Positions 18,109 through 24,352 of a stretch of DNA of 64,000 nt are shown here, one piece after another. Origin of the DNA: Affinundibacterium baiyunense (GTDB lineage Bacteria > Pseudomonadota > Gammaproteobacteria > Burkholderiales > Burkholderiaceae_D); the NCBI RefSeq assembly GCF_018139645.1, contig NZ_JAGSPM010000005.1, positions 111,984 through 175,983 of the forward strand. The letters run 5' to 3'. The notes under the pieces were generated by a model that worked only from the letters and a program-made list of their open reading frames with translations, was not told the DNA's origin and made no database searches. Made by a program: the position numbers and the translations under genes. Positions within the stretch are counted from its first letter, which is position 1. Every line of letters starts with the position of its first letter.

Positions 18109-19083
18109 CTAGATTGTTAGGTTATCCATTGGACTCTTGACGCCAGCGCCTCCAATTTTTAAGACGTGGGTATAGATCATGGTCGTACTCACGTCTGCGT
18201 GACCCAAAAGCTCTTGGACTGTTCGAATATCGTAACCTGATTGAAGCAAATGTGTCGCAAATGAATGTCGTAGAGTATGGGGTGAGGCGGGTTTATGAAT
18301 CTGCGCAGCCTCCTTGGCTAGCTTAAAAGCGCGTTGAAACGTGCGGTCATAAAGATGATGGCGACGAATGACTTTGCTGCGTGGATCAACAGAGACAGTC
18401 GCTTGAGGAAATACCCAGTGCCACGCCCAAGTTTGCCCAGCAGATGGATATTTTCTTTCGAGCGCATAAGGCATTTCAACCCCAGACTGATTGTTTGCGC
18501 GGTCTTTTGTCCAGAGTGTCTTGGAATGAATTAGCTGTGCCTTTATGTGTTCGATTAAGCTTAGCGGCAACATTAAAGCGCGATCTTTGTTCCCTTTACC
18601 AGCTCTTACAATGATGGTTTTATGAAGGAAGTCGATGTCTTTCACTCGTAGTTGTAGCGCCTCATTGATACGCATGCCGGTGCCATATAGAAGTTGCGCT
18701 AATAAAAGGTGTTCGCCAGATAAACGAGAAAAGATCGCCCGAACTTCATCAACCGACAGCACGACAGGCAAGCGCCGTGCAGTCTTTGGTTGGCCGATCT
18801 CTTTTAGCCAAGGTAAATCGATACAAAGAACCACTTTATACATAAATAAAATGGCAGAGAGCGCTTGACGATGAGTGGAAGGGGACACTTGCTTATGGTT
18901 TGCTAAATAGCTCAGGAAGGCCTCGACTTCTGGTGCTCCCATCTCGGTTGGGTGGCGCAACTTGTGAAATCGGATGAAATAGCGGCACCAATACACATAG
19001 ACTTTCTCAGTGCGCAAGCTGTAATGCTTATAGCGAATTGCTTCCTTGACACGATCAAGAAGCTTGGTAGAATGCAGCTCCAT
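18109..19083 (-). CDS. intI: Integron integrase IntI (tyrosine recombinase)
   Basis: 324 residues from the ATG at 19083. The longer frame to a TTG at 19122 is unlikely because it would start inside the LexA box. Catalytic residues (ATG numbering): Arg138 in [10 protein letters not shown], Lys163 in AGKGNKDR, His269 and Arg272 in [15 protein letters not shown], His295 in [10 protein letters not shown], and Tyr304 in MIYTHV. The IntI-specific insert before box II is present (WHWVFPQ ... [19 protein letters not shown]), which separates it from XerC/D. The N-terminal SAM-like domain has [20 protein letters not shown]. It should recombine attC and attI sites and looks intact. Confidence 0.95.
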
Positions 19084-19112: not shown

Positions 19113-19132
19113 TACTGTACAAATATACAGTA
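19113..19132 (-). promoter_or_regulatory. LexA (SOS) box of the integron integrase gene
   Basis: TACTGTACAAATATACAGTA: CTGT-N8-ACAG with symmetric TA flanks, very close to the proteobacterial LexA consensus. It covers the -10 of the intI promoter and lies 30 bp before the intI ATG, so integrase expression should be induced by DNA damage, as known for several other integrons. Confidence 0.9.
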
Positions 19133-19156
19133 TAAATCTGGAAAGCTAATGTACAA
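19129..19156 (-). promoter_or_regulatory. intI promoter
   Basis: On the minus strand TTGTAC (19151-19156), a 16-bp spacer, and TATACT (19129-19134). The -10 overlaps the LexA box, giving a simple repression geometry. Confidence 0.65.
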
Positions 19157-19240
19157 AAGACTTTGTAGAGGATCTATGAAAAGTATTATGCGACAAGTTG
19201 CTTTTTCGCCCGTCATTTCGCCGTCTATATCTAGTTAGGC
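19157..19240 (+). other. attI recombination region
   Basis: The stretch between the intI promoter and the first cassette. It ends in the core site GTTAGGC (19234-19240), whose G^TT point is where cassette 1 begins. The exact left limit of attI and its integrase-binding direct repeats cannot be set by eye. A cassette promoter (Pc) should be here or in intI; I could not define one securely (TTTGTA...TATTAT near 19164-19190 is a weak candidate). Confidence 0.75.
19176..19238 (+). CDS. 20-codon ORF across attI, ending at the recombination junction
   Basis: ATG at 19176 (preceded by GAGGA at a short spacing) is followed by 19 sense codons and a TAG at 19236-19238 that lies inside the core site GTTAGGC. 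Cassette 1 starts 6 nt later with no ribosome site of its own. This copies the logic of ORF-11 in attI1 of class 1 integrons, a short translated ORF that feeds ribosomes into the first cassette. Because the stop codon is supplied by the TTAGGC of the inserted cassette, most cassettes with this core would close the ORF identically. Coding status is inferred. Confidence 0.5.
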   Translation: MKSIMRQVAFSPVISPSISS

Positions 19241-19244
19241 ATAT

Positions 19245-19688
19245 ATGGTCGCGGCCTTCACCAAAATCCCGGATGAGTCAGCTTGGTATGGATACGAAGC
19301 TGACCTTGACGTGAAGTACATGCATGGTCTGTTCTTCGGAAAGTCCATTGAGGAAGTCCAAAGGTTTTTCGGACAGGGCCACTCGATTGAGCGTATGGAT
19401 GAATTGATGTTCGCTCCCCGCCCGGTGTTTCAATATTACGTTCAGGCTTTTTCAACCTTTGTTTTGTCCGAAAAGGCGGCAGGAGATTCTGATTCTGCAA
19501 GTGCGTTTATTGATTTACTCTTGGTTCGAGAAGAACGAGATCCCGGTAGCGTTAAAGCAGTTCTAAAAACACTTTCCCCGTGCATCGACTTTGTTGCCAA
19601 CAACCAGGTGCATTTCGACGCCGATGAAGATATCTACGGAAATTTTCGAGAACGTTTGCAACCAATCCTGGAGCTGTCTAATGCCTAA
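19245..19688 (+). CDS. Integron cassette 1: uncharacterised protein
   Basis: A 147-residue soluble, acidic, mostly helical protein that I do not recognise. It has no signal peptide, cysteine motif or membrane helix. Features are FFGKSIEEVQRFFGQGHSIERMDEL and a C-terminal IYGNFRERLQPILELSN. The ATG is 5 bp after the cassette boundary and no Shine-Dalgarno is present, so translation may rely on the attI ORF ending just upstream. The stop codon overlaps attC1. As first cassette it should be the best expressed of the array. Confidence 0.75.
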   Translation: MVAAFTKIPDESAWYGYEADLDVKYMHGLFFGKSIEEVQRFFGQGHSIERMDELMFAPRPVFQYYVQAFSTFVLSEKAAGDSDSASAFIDLLLVREERDPGSVKAVLKTLSPCIDFVANNQVHFDADEDIYGNFRERLQPILELSNA

Positions 19689-19775
19689 CCCTTCGGTCAA
19701 GCGGGACTGCGGAACCGGCGTGGCTTCTCCGGGCAGTCGCTTTCGCGCCGCAGCCCCTTACCTCCAACGTTAGGC
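19683..19775 (+). other. attC1 (93 bp)
   Basis: Begins GCCTAAC (19683-19689) and ends GTTAGGC (19769-19775), which are complementary outer boxes. The next inner pair includes TCAAGCGGGACTG on the left and an imperfect partner on the right. Same sequence type as attC3 and attC6 at its left end. Confidence 0.92.
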
Positions 19776-19786
19776 ATCAACGAATT

Positions 19787-20353
19787 ATGGAATCAGTCGA
19801 GATCAGTCTGAAAAAAGGAAAGCTCACATTTCTGTGGTTGGCACTGATGGGCGGCATAATCTTCATGGGGTGGTGGTTCCTCACATCTGGACAAGAAGCG
19901 AACGTGTCGGGCTTGCGTTTGTTTCACATTGCAATGGGCACATTGCTACTTCTTATTGCAGCAACTATTTTACCTTTCGGTCTGAGGCTGGTGAGTAAGA
20001 CCCCTGGTTTAATTATCGACAAGAATGGTCTCACTGATCATTCGGCGACATGGCAGAATGGCTTTGTGGCTTGGTCTGACATAAAGGCAATAGAAGTTGC
20101 ACAACCAGAACAAACGGCCATGATGTTTATTGTTCTTTTTGATCCCGAGAAATACCTTCAATCCAGAACAAAAATTCGGCGGGTTCTCGCTAGCACGGGA
20201 GATAGGTTTGGATATCCGAGTGCTTTTGGAATCGTAGTCGGTAATCTGAATATCGAATTTGACGAGTTAGTAAAGGTGGTTGAACAGTATTGGGGCGATT
20301 ATCATCAACGTTCAAATGTCTCAAGAAATTCAACGGAAGAGGTTAGTGTCTAA
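19787..20353 (+). CDS. Integron cassette 2: STM3941-like membrane protein
   Basis: A 188-residue inner-membrane protein. Two hydrophobic helices at about residues 13-33 (FLWLALMGGIIFMGWWF) and 45-68 (LFHIAMGTLLLLIAATILPFGL) are followed by a PH-like cytoplasmic beta domain with GLIIDKNGLTDHSATWQNGFVAWSDIKAIEV. This matches the STM3941 family of small proteins, which is often found in integron cassettes and has no established function. No Shine-Dalgarno is visible. A second protein of similar topology is encoded at 29129-29641 outside the integron. Confidence 0.8.
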   Translation: MESVEISLKKGKLTFLWLALMGGIIFMGWWFLTSGQEANVSGLRLFHIAMGTLLLLIAATILPFGLRLVSKTPGLIIDKNGLTDHSATWQNGFVAWSDIKAIEVAQPEQTAMMFIVLFDPEKYLQSRTKIRRVLASTGDRFGYPSAFGIVVGNLNIEFDELVKVVEQYWGDYHQRSNVSRNSTEEVSV

Positions 20354-20415
20354 TTCTTGTTTTGTTCATGATAAGCAAACACTTACAGCAAGAAACTCAT
20401 ACGGGGAAAGTCGAT

Positions 20416-20538
20416 ACCTAACATGGCGCTCGACGCAGAAACTGCACATTTTGGCGTTTCAACGTTCAGCATTTTTTCAATCATCTGCTCTTCGATTACT
20501 GTGCGCTGTGCGCAGTTCCGATCAGCTCAGCGTTAGGC
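20416..20538 (+). other. attC2 (123 bp)
   Basis: Outer boxes ACCTAAC (20416-20422) and GTTAGGC (20532-20538). The interior contains ACTGCACA ... TGCGCAGT pairing and a long loop rich in TTC. It is clearly related to attC5, so cassettes 2 and 5 share an attC type. Confidence 0.9.
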
Positions 20539-20553
20539 CTCTCATTTTTCGAA

Positions 20554-20940
20554 ATGACATCGGACATGTACGACAAAAACATCTCGCCCGTGGGCTGGTA
20601 CGTGTGCTCATACTTGCTTCGCTTTGTAGAGTTGGCGTGGACTCACAGGGAAGACGCAGAAGCAAAATTTCTTTCCTGGGAAAACACGGTCTTGGTTAGA
20701 GCCAACTCAATCGAAGAGGCTTATGACAAAACCGTTGCCATTGCTAAGGAAGCCTCTCATCCCTACAAAGGCGGAGCTGAAGGGGTTGATGTGCAATGGG
20801 TCTTTGAAGGCATAACAGAAGTCCTGCCCATTTACGAAGAACTTGAGGACGGTGCAGAAATCATGTGGCGAGAACGAACACCCCGCAAGTTGAAAAATCT
20901 CCGCACACTCGTTCGCCAAAAGCATGAGTTTGCACAATAG
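20554..20940 (+). CDS. Integron cassette 3: DUF4288-like protein
   Basis: A 128-residue soluble protein. It contains GWYVCSYLLRFVE near the start and ENTVLVRANSIEEAYDKTVAIAKEA, then VQWVFEGITEVLPIYEELEDGAEI, the pattern of DUF4288 proteins (compact alpha/beta fold, no known activity). Start at the first ATG (20554); a second ATG four codons on is also possible. No ribosome site is evident. DUF4288 proteins are recurrent integron and accessory-genome cargo. Confidence 0.72.
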   Translation: MTSDMYDKNISPVGWYVCSYLLRFVELAWTHREDAEAKFLSWENTVLVRANSIEEAYDKTVAIAKEASHPYKGGAEGVDVQWVFEGITEVLPIYEELEDGAEIMWRERTPRKLKNLRTLVRQKHEFAQ

Positions 20941-20979
20941 GCTCATCATGCATTTGCAACACTGTGCCTTCGCACCCCA

Positions 20980-21097
20980 GCCTAACTGGGCGGTCAAGCG
21001 GACGCCAACACTGGCCATGGCTTCGCCATCTTCATGGCCAGTGTTGGTACCCTCCGCACCTTCGGTGCTCCGGCGCCGCTTACCTTGGGCGTTATGC
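20980..21097 (+). other. attC3 (118 bp)
   Basis: Outer boxes GCCTAAC (20980-20986) and GTTATGC (21091-21097). A strong internal hairpin is formed by CCAACACTGGCCATG and CATGGCCAGTGTTGG, which would make a long stable stem in the folded bottom strand recognised by IntI. Confidence 0.9.
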
Positions 21098-21112
21098 AAA
21101 TCAAGGGAAAGA

Positions 21113-21523
21113 ATGAATTACATTCAAGTAAAAGAGCAAGAAGCGCTACCTTTAATTGAGCATTTATATCCGTTTAAGTGCTTAGTCATAATTTCTGAAA
21201 ACGTTTCTCAAGCAAGACAAGAAGAAATAAGTATGTGGCTTGTGAAATCCGGTTGCGTAGTTATGTGCGCATGGGGTATCAGTTGTAGTTCATGGGATGA
21301 CTCCGTTGATTACGCCAGCATTGAAATGTTTAATTACAATCAACCACCGTCTGAGCGTTTCGTATTAACAACGTGGCATGAAAATGAACCGTTAGAAGAG
21401 GCTATGTTTTTTCTTAAACATACAATAAGCCACCCAGAACATGATCTTGAAAATGTTGTTTTGTTGCATATATCATCAAAAAACCAAAGCAATGAAATTA
21501 TTGCTGAATTTGAAAATGCATAA
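21113..21523 (+). CDS. Integron cassette 4: uncharacterised small protein
   Basis: 136 residues from ATG 21113, preceded by AAGGGA; the longer open frame reaching back to 20924 only reads through attC3. The protein is soluble and acidic with CLVIISENVSQARQEEISMWLVKSGCVVMCAWG, SSWDDSVDYASIEMF and RFVLTTWHENEPLEEAMFFLKH. This combination resembles a small uncharacterised family (possibly DUF7684-type) found in accessory genomes; I cannot give a function. Base composition is more AT-rich than cassettes 3 and 8. It is one of only two cassette genes with a clear ribosome site. Confidence 0.78.
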   Translation: MNYIQVKEQEALPLIEHLYPFKCLVIISENVSQARQEEISMWLVKSGCVVMCAWGISCSSWDDSVDYASIEMFNYNQPPSERFVLTTWHENEPLEEAMFFLKHTISHPEHDLENVVLLHISSKNQSNEIIAEFENA

Positions 21524-21648
21524 CAAATCGCTCAAGCATCGCCACTGCGTGGCTGGACAGTTTTTAAGTCGCGCTTTTGTGGTTTTGCTTCGCAAAAGTA
21601 TTCCACAAAAACACAACTTAAAAACTGCCGCTTAGCTCGGCGTTAAAT
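21518..21648 (+). other. attC4 (131 bp)
   Basis: Outer boxes GCATAAC (21518-21524) and GTTAAAT (21642-21648). The interior has a long arm pair CAGTTTTTAAGT / ACTTAAAAACTG and TTTTGTGG / CCACAAAA. Its outer 20 bp on each side match attC7. Confidence 0.9.
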
Positions 21649-21651
21649 TAC

Positions 21652-21963
21652 ATGCCAAAGAAACTATTGCGCAGTTGTCCAGAATGTTCGGGAGAACTGA
21701 TTTATATGGAACCACTTCGTAAGGTACCGTGGTTTATTGGAGAGATTTTTGGATGGGTTGGCGCAGGTCTTCTGGTATGTATAGTTTCCGCTTTAGGTGT
21801 TGGTGAGCATGGAATCGCGATCATTGCAGGGGCCGTCATTGGTGTGTTGTTATTTTTGAAGCTCGCAAGTGATACGAAAAATGATCCTGCAAAAGGATTG
21901 CTCTATTGCAGAGCGTGTAAAAGTTATTCAAGCGCAGACAAGCCTGAAAATCTGGAAAGCTAG
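21652..21963 (+). CDS. Integron cassette 5: zinc-ribbon membrane protein
   Basis: A 103-residue protein. An N-terminal CPEC pair (residues ~9-12) and a C-terminal CRAC pair (about 86-89) can form one zinc ribbon, while two hydrophobic helices between them (about 31-50 and 54-71) place it in the membrane with both cysteine pairs on the same side. Function unknown. It begins 4 bp after the attC4 boundary with no Shine-Dalgarno. Confidence 0.75.
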   Translation: MPKKLLRSCPECSGELIYMEPLRKVPWFIGEIFGWVGAGLLVCIVSALGVGEHGIAIIAGAVIGVLLFLKLASDTKNDPAKGLLYCRACKSYSSADKPENLES

Positions 21964-21981
21964 AAGTGAAAAAGCAATTTA

Positions 21982-22099
21982 ACCTAACGCTCATCTCGGA
22001 AACTGCACATAGTAATGTATCGACGTTCAACTTTTCATTTACCATTTGCTCTTCGGTTCTTGTGCTTCAAGCGCAGTTCCGGATAGCTCCACGTTAGAC
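21982..22099 (+). other. attC5 (118 bp)
   Basis: Outer boxes ACCTAAC (21982-21988) and GTTAGAC (22093-22099). The interior resembles attC2 (AACTGCACA..., CATTTGCTCTTCGGTT, GCGCAGTTCCGGATAGCTC). Confidence 0.9.
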
Positions 22100-22106
22100 G
22101 TTTCGT

Positions 22107-22529
22107 ATGAAGAGCCGCGACAGACCCACATCAGTTCCAGCAAACCCGGAAGCTTGGTCCGAAAAATCAAAGCAGTCCGTCGCGTACGAATTCAGGCGCG
22201 AGTACACCGACAAGCCGTACAAGTGCTGGCACTGCAAAGCTGAATGCGTGTTTACAGCACAAGATCAGCAATACACGTACGAGGTTAAAAAGGCGAGCAT
22301 CGATCAGCAACGATTGCTATGCGCAGCATGTTGGGCCGAGTCACATCGAATTCGCAACATGCTTTTAGAGTGCGAGAAAAAGTGGGCTGAGGGCAAAGCA
22401 AAGTTGCAAACAGACAAACCGTTTCTCACACACTGGTCAGAACTTCTCGTCGCTCTGGAGGCATATGTTCCGCACAAGCCAGATAAAGCCAAAAAGAACA
22501 TGCTGGCCAAGCTGCTCGCAAACGCCTAA
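22107..22529 (+). CDS. Integron cassette 6: zinc-ribbon (zf-trcl-like) protein
   Basis: A 140-residue soluble basic protein. KCWHCKAECVFTAQDQQYTYEV followed by LLCAACWAESH (about residues 39-78) gives a CxxC...CxxC zinc ribbon of the kind seen in the zf-trcl family, where the VFTAxxQxxY stretch is conserved. The C-terminal part is Lys-rich and helical (DKAKKNMLAKLLANA). Nucleic-acid or protein binding is plausible but not shown. The stop codon is inside attC6. Confidence 0.72.
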   Translation: MKSRDRPTSVPANPEAWSEKSKQSVAYEFRREYTDKPYKCWHCKAECVFTAQDQQYTYEVKKASIDQQRLLCAACWAESHRIRNMLLECEKKWAEGKAKLQTDKPFLTHWSELLVALEAYVPHKPDKAKKNMLAKLLANA

Positions 22530-22583
22530 CCCCTCATTCAACGGGACTGGCCTTCGGCCCGCCCGTTAATTCGAACGTTATAT
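22524..22583 (+). other. attC6 (60 bp)
   Basis: Outer boxes GCCTAAC (22524-22530) and GTTATAT (22577-22583). The site is short with a compact GGCC-TTC-GGCC hairpin in the centre. Left end matches attC1 and attC3 (TTCAACGGGACTG). Confidence 0.9.
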
Positions 22584-22598
22584 TTTCCGAGCAACCCC

Positions 22599-22967
22599 AT
22601 GACACCGAATGACATTGAAAGAATTGAAAAAGAAATTGGGCTTACTTTTCCAGCGTGTTATGTCGATGTGATTATTAGGTACCCCTCAGAATTATTGGAT
22701 TCTGATGCCCCTGATTTTGGGTTGCTTGATGACGCAGATGAAATCATAGAAGAAAATCGAGAAGTTAGAGAAAACGGTTACTTTGGTGAAGTGTGGCCTG
22801 AGCGCTATTTAATTATTGGTAAAAATGGTTGTGGTGATTATTATGTTATTACTCCAGACGCAAAGGAATTTTCTGTAGGCTTCTCTGATCATGAAAAAAT
22901 GGAATGCAACCTTTATGCAAATACCTTGGAAGAATTCATTATGAAGTATCTCAGTGAGCAAAAATAA
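22599..22967 (+). CDS. Integron cassette 7: SMI1/KNR4 family protein
   Basis: A 122-residue acidic soluble protein. It begins with DIERIEKEIGLTFPACYVDVIIRYP, the SMI1/KNR4 (SUKH) opening, and has WPERYLIIGKNGCGDYYVI and a C-terminal TLEEFIMKYLSEQ. SUKH proteins commonly act as immunity proteins against nuclease or other polymorphic toxins, but many are orphan. No toxin gene is adjacent, so a stand-alone immunity role is only a possibility. AT-rich. Confidence 0.85.
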   Translation: MTPNDIERIEKEIGLTFPACYVDVIIRYPSELLDSDAPDFGLLDDADEIIEENREVRENGYFGEVWPERYLIIGKNGCGDYYVITPDAKEFSVGFSDHEKMECNLYANTLEEFIMKYLSEQK

Positions 22968-22969
22968 AA

Positions 22970-23020
22970 ATATAACAAATCGCTCAAGCATCGCAACTGT
23001 CGCTTAGTTCGACGTTAAGC
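22970..23020 (+). other. attC7 (51 bp, shortened)
   Basis: Outer boxes ATATAAC (22970-22976) and GTTAAGC (23014-23020). The left half AACAAATCGCTCAAGCATCG is identical to attC4, and the right half GTCGCTTAGTTCGACGTTAA parallels it, but the central hairpin of attC4 is missing. This is near the lower size limit of attC sites. Confidence 0.85.
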
Positions 23021-23039: not shown

Positions 23040-23675
23040 ATGCTGCATCCACACCGCTTCGCCATATATTTGCTTACAACGTTTTGCCCGTTCTTTGCTT
23101 TCGCTCAGGAAGCAAAGCTCGTGTCGCAACCCGCACTCACCAAGTCGGCGCTGCTGATCGTAGACGCCCAAGTCGGCGTTATGTCCTCTGTCTGGGAGTC
23201 GCAGCGCGTCGTTAATAATATCGAGAAACTTGTGAGCAAGGCCAGATCTGCCGGGGTACCCGTGATTTGGGTTCAGCACTCGGACAACGATGAACTGAAG
23301 TTCGGTTCTGCGAACTGGAAGCTCTTGCCAAACTTCGTGCCCACCTCGGAGGAGCTGATCATTCACAAGAAGTACAACTCATCCTTCGCAGGCACGGATC
23401 TGGAGAAGCGCTTGAGAGCATTGGGTGCATCAAGGCTGGTTCTTGCTGGAGCACTCACGAACTGGTGCATTCGGTCTACTGCATATGCCGCCCTTGAGCG
23501 TGGCTATCATTTGGTACTCGCCAGCGATGCCCATTCAACCGAGTCACTCAAACTGCCAGACGGAAAGACGGTCCCCGCCGAATCCATCGTGGCAGAGCTG
23601 AACTCGGTCTTCAGTTGGGTAAGTGCGCCGAGGGTTCGAACCGAAGTGGAACGAACCAACAATGTCAGGTTCTAG
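23040..23675 (+). CDS. Last array gene: exported cysteine hydrolase (isochorismatase-like)
   Basis: A 211-residue protein with an N-terminal signal peptide (cleavage after FAFA near residue 22), then an isochorismatase-like hydrolase domain. The catalytic triad is visible: Asp in LLIVDAQVG, Lys in IIHKKYNSSF, and the nucleophilic Cys in LTNWCIRSTA. A periplasmic location is unusual for this fold, since most members are cytoplasmic amidases. A GGGGAG ribosome site precedes the ATG. Its coding sequence is visibly more GC-rich than cassettes 4, 5 and 7. No attC was found after it, so it may be a degenerate terminal cassette or ordinary flanking DNA. Confidence 0.82.
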   Translation: MLHPHRFAIYLLTTFCPFFAFAQEAKLVSQPALTKSALLIVDAQVGVMSSVWESQRVVNNIEKLVSKARSAGVPVIWVQHSDNDELKFGSANWKLLPNFVPTSEELIIHKKYNSSFAGTDLEKRLRALGASRLVLAGALTNWCIRSTAYAALERGYHLVLASDAHSTESLKLPDGKTVPAESIVAELNSVFSWVSAPRVRTEVERTNNVRF

Positions 23676-24001: not shown

Positions 24002-24352
24002 TTAAGCTGGCACTGCATACGAAGTCCTTACTAATTTTTTATTCATGCGTTGTACGGTTCCATAGTCTTCACCATCACGCAGTGTCGCGTAGCAAATGCG
24101 GGCCAGTTTGTTGGCTAGTGCGCAGGCTGTTTTATTGTGGTTAGTTCGACCTTGCACTTTCAGTGCCCAGCTTCGTAGATCGTCTAGCAATCGATTAGTA
24201 CTAATGCTCGTAAGAGTAATGTGACGAATAATGAAAACACCAAAATGGTCATACCTAAAGGCGTGATTTAAAGCCATTCTGCGGTTGCCGCTCTCTGTAG
24301 TCAGCATCAATTTATTTTGGCTGCGTAGGTACATAGTTCGGGCAGCGAGCAA
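24002..24352 (-). pseudogene. IS110-family transposase, C-terminal remnant
   Basis: A 116-codon open fragment ending at 24002. RLLDDLRSWALKVQGRTNHNKTACALANKLARICYATLRDGEDY matches the end of IS110-type transposases (the W-x-L, HNKxxxALANKLARI block). Upstream the match is scrambled: SLLLAARTMYLRSQ looks like the expected preceding helix, but about 40 residues in between do not fit, and the DEDD catalytic domain is absent. No intact start or element ends are visible, so this is a dead remnant. Some IS1111/IS110 elements insert into attC sites, which makes its position beside an integron array notable. Confidence 0.72.

Follow-up and report, generated by a model that had tools for sequence, protein, structure and literature searches.

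In the window, by which the whole analysed stretch of 64,000 nucleotides is meant, there lies an integron that consists of an integrase gene (intI), an attI site beside it and an array of cassettes with attC sites, the first four of which are convincing (Table 1). The intI product scores above the curated cut-offs set for two models of integron integrases, its residues 8-321 align with the solved integrase 2a3v, and it is 99.7-100% identical to the integrase of Undibacterium fentianense FT137W (L028), the genus being placed in Oxalobacteraceae, Betaproteobacteria (NCBI). In comparisons with three relatives the homology breaks off at 19236, 19242 and 19249, i.e., at the GTTAGGC core of 19234, and a close strain with 98.4% identity as far as the attI point has only short stretches in common beyond it, which implies that cassettes were exchanged. 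The differing arrays of close strains are observed directly, and through this array turnover they point, indirectly, to recombination activity of IntI. Since an automatic attC scan performed poorly (2 sites in the array, three false ones elsewhere in the window and none on contig C91 of the same genome), it was set aside and the attC sites were picked by eye; candidates 1-4 fold best, with z from -2.5 to -7.4 when compared with mononucleotide shuffles. Between 20554 and 22964 the cassettes encode, among others, proteins with DUF4288, DUF7684 and a treble-clef zinc domain, and a SUKH (SMI1/KNR4) protein. The final attC candidate is followed by the gene of an isochorismatase-type protein with a signal-like start (23040-23675), after which no attC was seen. 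The segment 23707-24463, behind the array, recurs three times, at 80-86% identity, in that part of the close strain L144 which holds its array; within this segment, the ORF at 24005-24352 has no Pfam match.

Table 1. Features of the integron in the window, with the LexA boxes found at other genes of the genome (positions of the latter relative to the gene).
Feature	Position	Strand	Basis or remark
intI, integron integrase, 324 aa, no internal stop	18109..19083	-	two integron-integrase models
Candidate cassette promoter Pc inside intI, TTGACA-16-TAGAAT	19046..19073	+	promoter scan
LexA box, 20-bp palindrome	19113..19132	.	motif, matrix and palindrome searches
Likely -10 of PintI, TATACT	19129..19134	-	read from the sequence; 4-bp overlap with the LexA box
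Possible -35 of PintI, TTGTAC, weak	19151..19156	-	read from the sequence; 16-bp spacing
attI recombination point, GTTAGGC	19234..19240	+	homology break against three relatives
Cassette array, seven attC candidates	19235..23020	+	by eye and folding
attC candidate 1	19683-19775	+	by eye, folded
attC candidate 2	20416-20538	+	by eye, folded
attC candidate 3	20980-21097	+	by eye, folded
attC candidate 4	21518-21648	+	by eye, folded
attC candidate 5	21982-22099	+	by eye, folded; z only -1.2
attC candidate 6	22524-22583	+	by eye, folded; weaker
attC candidate 7	22970-23020	+	by eye, folded; weaker
lexA box	31 bp upstream of likely lexA start		
recA box	111 bp upstream of recA		7/8 core bases
dinB box	14 bp upstream of dinB		exact full palindrome
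imuA box	3-12 bp upstream, depending on imuA start		7/8 core bases
recN box	103 bp upstream of recN		
recG box	44 bp upstream of recG		7/8 core bases

The promoter scan found one Pc-like promoter, inside intI, where 0.9 would be expected. Its 28 bases are kept to 28, 28, 26 and 26 in L029, L110, L030 and L112, respectively, loci in which third codon positions overall are only 39-65% identical; in six more distant loci of the same comparison the candidate is not retained. The synonymous positions of this promoter-like stretch are nearly frozen in four relatives. Class 1 and class 3 integrons are known to have their Pc inside intI (PMC5559693).

Upstream of intI the 20-mer TACTGTACAAATATACAGTA is present letter for letter, with 29 bp between it and the intI ATG (start at 19083, minus strand). 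The preliminary description had called it a match to the LexA consensus that overlaps the -10 of the intI promoter, and both statements hold: the copy is exact and contains CTGTN8ACAG, its score with a matrix of the genome's own SOS boxes is the best in the window, and it shares 4 bp with the likely minus-strand -10. The promoter elements were assigned by eye, PintI having received no call in the consensus promoter scan; the TATACT is retained in those Undibacterium relatives whose upstream regions were listed. The CTGTN8ACAG core occurs exactly once in the window, in this box, where 0.61 occurrences are expected by chance, so that the core alone cannot exclude chance and was dropped as significant by itself. 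The full palindrome TACTGTN8ACAGTA has its sole exact match in the window at intI, and 2 matches (1.30 expected) if up to two mismatches are allowed. The matrix, built from the lexA, recA, dinB, imuA and recN boxes with the intI box left out, gives the intI box 23.8, the top score in the window (the runner-up reaches 11.1, the five source boxes 22.9-26.1), and among 4,991,981 positions in shuffles of the window none reached this score.

The DNA-binding family of LexA has one match in the genome (4.27 Mb), named lexA. Its recognition stretch differs at 2 of 19 residues from that of the solved LexA structures, which we take to be those of the E. coli protein, and the Ala-Gly pair, presumably the cut site, is retained. 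The linker between the two domains is ~18 residues longer than in solved LexA (L001 1042-1773). A search for lexA in the genome and for its motif upstream of recA and lexA had been proposed as the check, and it turned out in favour of the idea: there is one LexA, with a DNA-binding domain like that of solved LexA, and boxes precede both genes, the one at recA with one core mismatch. Two of the marks of an SOS-regulon gene, a LexA box at the promoter and a compatible LexA in the same genome, are found for intI. The exact full palindrome occurs at four places in the genome, namely upstream of dinB, at intI, in L005, where it adjoins ORFs that look phage-like by eye, and in L002, where it lies inside a long ORF, flagellar-type as named by eye, and is probably due to chance. 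The L005 region (own contig C87:183776-186795) has two exact LexA cores near Rz-like, HicB-like and Arc-like ORFs (assigned by eye) and is possibly an SOS-linked prophage. When up to two mismatches are allowed, the full palindrome is not enriched (109 places against 164 for the reversed pattern, per strand), and taking all such places as the regulon was dropped, since the reversed control is commoner. The narrower CTGTATN6ACAG is enriched (6 and 6 against 1 and 2 for the control), and of its ten places in the genome at least two are inside long ORFs (L020, L021).

The box was followed in 110 loci with a relative of intI, made up of the best 80 of a genome contig search and 30 from a family search. 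Many of the best 80 are near-identical copies of class 1 type, and these many near-identical intI loci are, we assume, class 1 integrons. After L101 was left out for its short upstream stretch and identical 100-bp regions were merged, 59 distinct upstream regions remained, and the exact core was found near the same offset in 33 of them and at least 7/8 of its bases in 42; control windows inside intI gave 0/472 and 6/472, respectively. Not even a 7/8 core lies within 100 bp in 17 of the 59 relatives, and in three loci of the contig search (L044, L092, L096) an exact core lies farther upstream, between -156 and -175, which was not scored as a hit. The family set alone gives 16/30 exact cores and 22/30 with at least 7/8, its eight misses being L111 (68% identity) and seven loci at 54.5-59.5%. 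Among the matches listed, intI is found in 7 of 26 Undibacterium genomes, and one examined intI locus in each of the seven has the box, three times exact and four times with one mismatch. Both half-sites are kept in L029 and L030 despite changed flanks or a changed spacer. This conservation supports a function of the box.

Many copies of another attI-type platform are present in Undibacterium genomes; the platform of the window is of a different type and stands outside this set. Among the examined loci 30 distinct copies were collected, and 8 without a recognisable promoter arm were dropped, which left 22. At least a 7/8 core is found in 3/3 copies with intact intI, 2/3 with broken intI and 5/16 without intI (one of these 16 measures only 384 bases), and the exact core in 2/3, 1/3 and 0/16, respectively; for intact against no intI, Fisher p is 0.018 for the exact and 0.058 for the 7/8 core, the copies being related to one another. 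This trend suggests that the box is retained on account of intI. One member, L156, has a broken intI and still an exact box. Copies of an attI-like platform without intI include two of the genome itself, L140 (C83:34432) and L139 (C91:131823), and L204 (G218 C92), and some intI-less copies have a GTTATACC...GGTATAAC palindrome at the place where the LexA box would be expected.

Very probably, the 20-mer serves LexA as an operator at the promoter of a chromosomal integron integrase that is functional, and DNA damage would then induce intI and cassette recombination. In undamaged cells LexA would sit on the -10 and keep intI nearly silent, and the cassettes would meanwhile be transcribed from a promoter of their own within intI. 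Once DNA is damaged, RecA filaments would bring about the self-cleavage of LexA, intI would be transcribed, and IntI would then recombine cassettes at attI and attC. The SOS control that the preliminary description had put forward is well supported by the LexA of the genome, its own regulon motif and the conservation in relatives, from which we infer LexA binding, repression, induction and damage as the driver of shuffling.

It might be argued that the palindrome is a relic, i.e., descended from a LexA operator whose control over intI has been lost, as was reported for class 2 integrons, where the putative PintI2 box is not bound by LexA (PMC5559693); the exact box in front of the broken intI of L156 fits this as well. 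However, the SOS boxes of the genome bracket the window's box in score, intI is intact, and the half-sites in L029 and L030 have outlasted changes around and between them, which makes a relic improbable. It is highly improbable that the main effect of the box is on transcription of the cassettes, with LexA between Pc and attI blocking the Pc polymerase and damage raising cassette expression: the Pc candidate does read through the box toward attI, yet a box at the -10 of PintI is in the usual place of an operator. As to a palindrome that arose by chance or serves another regulator as its operator, the expected number of cores per window and the one exact 20-bp place inside a long ORF (L002) speak for such an origin, but matrix score, position and conservation taken together leave it barely credible.

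Beyond the window, a second array, its attC sites picked by eye, lies on contig C91 of the same genome at a platform that lacks intI. Its first cassette, of 301 bp (C91:121515-121815, minus strand; L141 9516-9816), carries CTGTATGTTTATACAG, and no ORF of more than 40 aa starts just behind this box. In a genus search 7 of 43 genomes match the cassette, G218 by a 26-bp attI piece only, and complete copies are found in L146, L148, L149, L150, L151 and L153, with five exact LexA cores and one of 7/8 (L151); a family search gave matches in 8 of 392 genomes, two of them of other genera. One of the latter, L170, has the hairpin of the cassette without an adjoining box, a 7/8 core being 27 bp further up, and in the other, L169, the hairpin stands beside an exact core with changed spacer, and a second exact core precedes an intI with stops (L169 10-135 and 304-323). 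L147 and L157 were excluded from the cassette and hairpin work, since an N marks an assembly join within each. The hairpin structure was derived from seven of the sequences, five of them alike, with L169 not used; L169 alone folds into the same main stem (z -5.8). Across eight sequences 94.8% of pair cells are kept and 10 of 36 pairs are changed on both sides, which exceeds all 500 shuffles (9 of 36 in the set of seven). Rfam gave no match at gathering scores for three loci. Two candidates were rejected: the second box before intI in G198 as a part of the platform, as the alignment of copies reveals an inserted cassette, and the 40-aa ORF of the inserted cassette as a conserved product, as it is shortened to 26 aa in L150 and to 29 aa in L151. 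Tentatively, SOS may act at two levels of the integron in Undibacterium and a related genus, where LexA would repress the integrase and also control a mobile ORF-less cassette, whose covarying hairpin would be an RNA made on damage or whose promoter would drive the cassettes behind it; this is a possibility rather than the expectation. Both parts occur in the present genome, as intI in the window and as the LexA-boxed C91 cassette at an intI-less attI platform. If confirmed, such a cassette would be an element that responds to damage and is itself mobile as a cassette, and it is a more novel lead than the intI box. It resembles the gene-less cassettes with promoter activity (PMC11014356; PMC6557892) in having regulatory features and no ORF of more than 40 aa right behind the box, and differs from those described there in its LexA box and covarying hairpin; the word LexA is absent from the text of PMC11014356 and, in PMC6557892, appears only about PintI and in the references.

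Cambray et al. (2011, PMC3108266) reported LexA sites in 624 of the 1,103 regions upstream of intI that they surveyed (56.6%); every one of these sites is of the beta/gamma type, and binding by LexA as well as derepression was demonstrated for Vibrio parahaemolyticus and for a plasmid integron. The authors regard loss of LexA control as the norm for chromosomal integrons of soil and freshwater, with retention where the host LexA fits, and the Undibacterium case agrees with such retention. That a LexA box at intI can nevertheless be dead follows from the unbound PintI2 box of class 2 integrons (PMC5559693). The notion that the finding extends SOS control to a new lineage has less weight than first stated: no paper on an Undibacterium integron appeared in the literature listings searched, but intI LexA sites of beta- and gammaproteobacteria had been surveyed in 2011 (PMC3108266). 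The intI LexA box of this freshwater bacterium is a solid but expected new instance of a known arrangement. With it, SOS control of cassette shuffling is extended to the betaproteobacterial genus Undibacterium, and the differing arrays of close strains would allow damage-driven shuffling to be tested outside pathogens. The locus is like Vibrio intIA in being a chromosomal integron with a beta/gamma-type LexA box overlapping the -10 (PMC3108266), and unlike it, since SOS control there was established by experiment (PMC3108266) and the present case is one of another genus, with about seven cassettes by eye. With class 1 intI1 it shares the position of the box right at the -10 (L042: TAGACTGTACAAAAAAACAGTC), a similar box offset (-52 in intI1 vs -47 here) and a Pc-like promoter inside intI. 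However, IntI is only ~68% identical to the near-identical copies of class 1 type, where a class 1 integrase would be nearly identical to the mobile one, megablast gave no plasmid match, and, unlike a class 1 integron, this one has another attI region and is chromosomal, beside groES/groEL-like ORFs.
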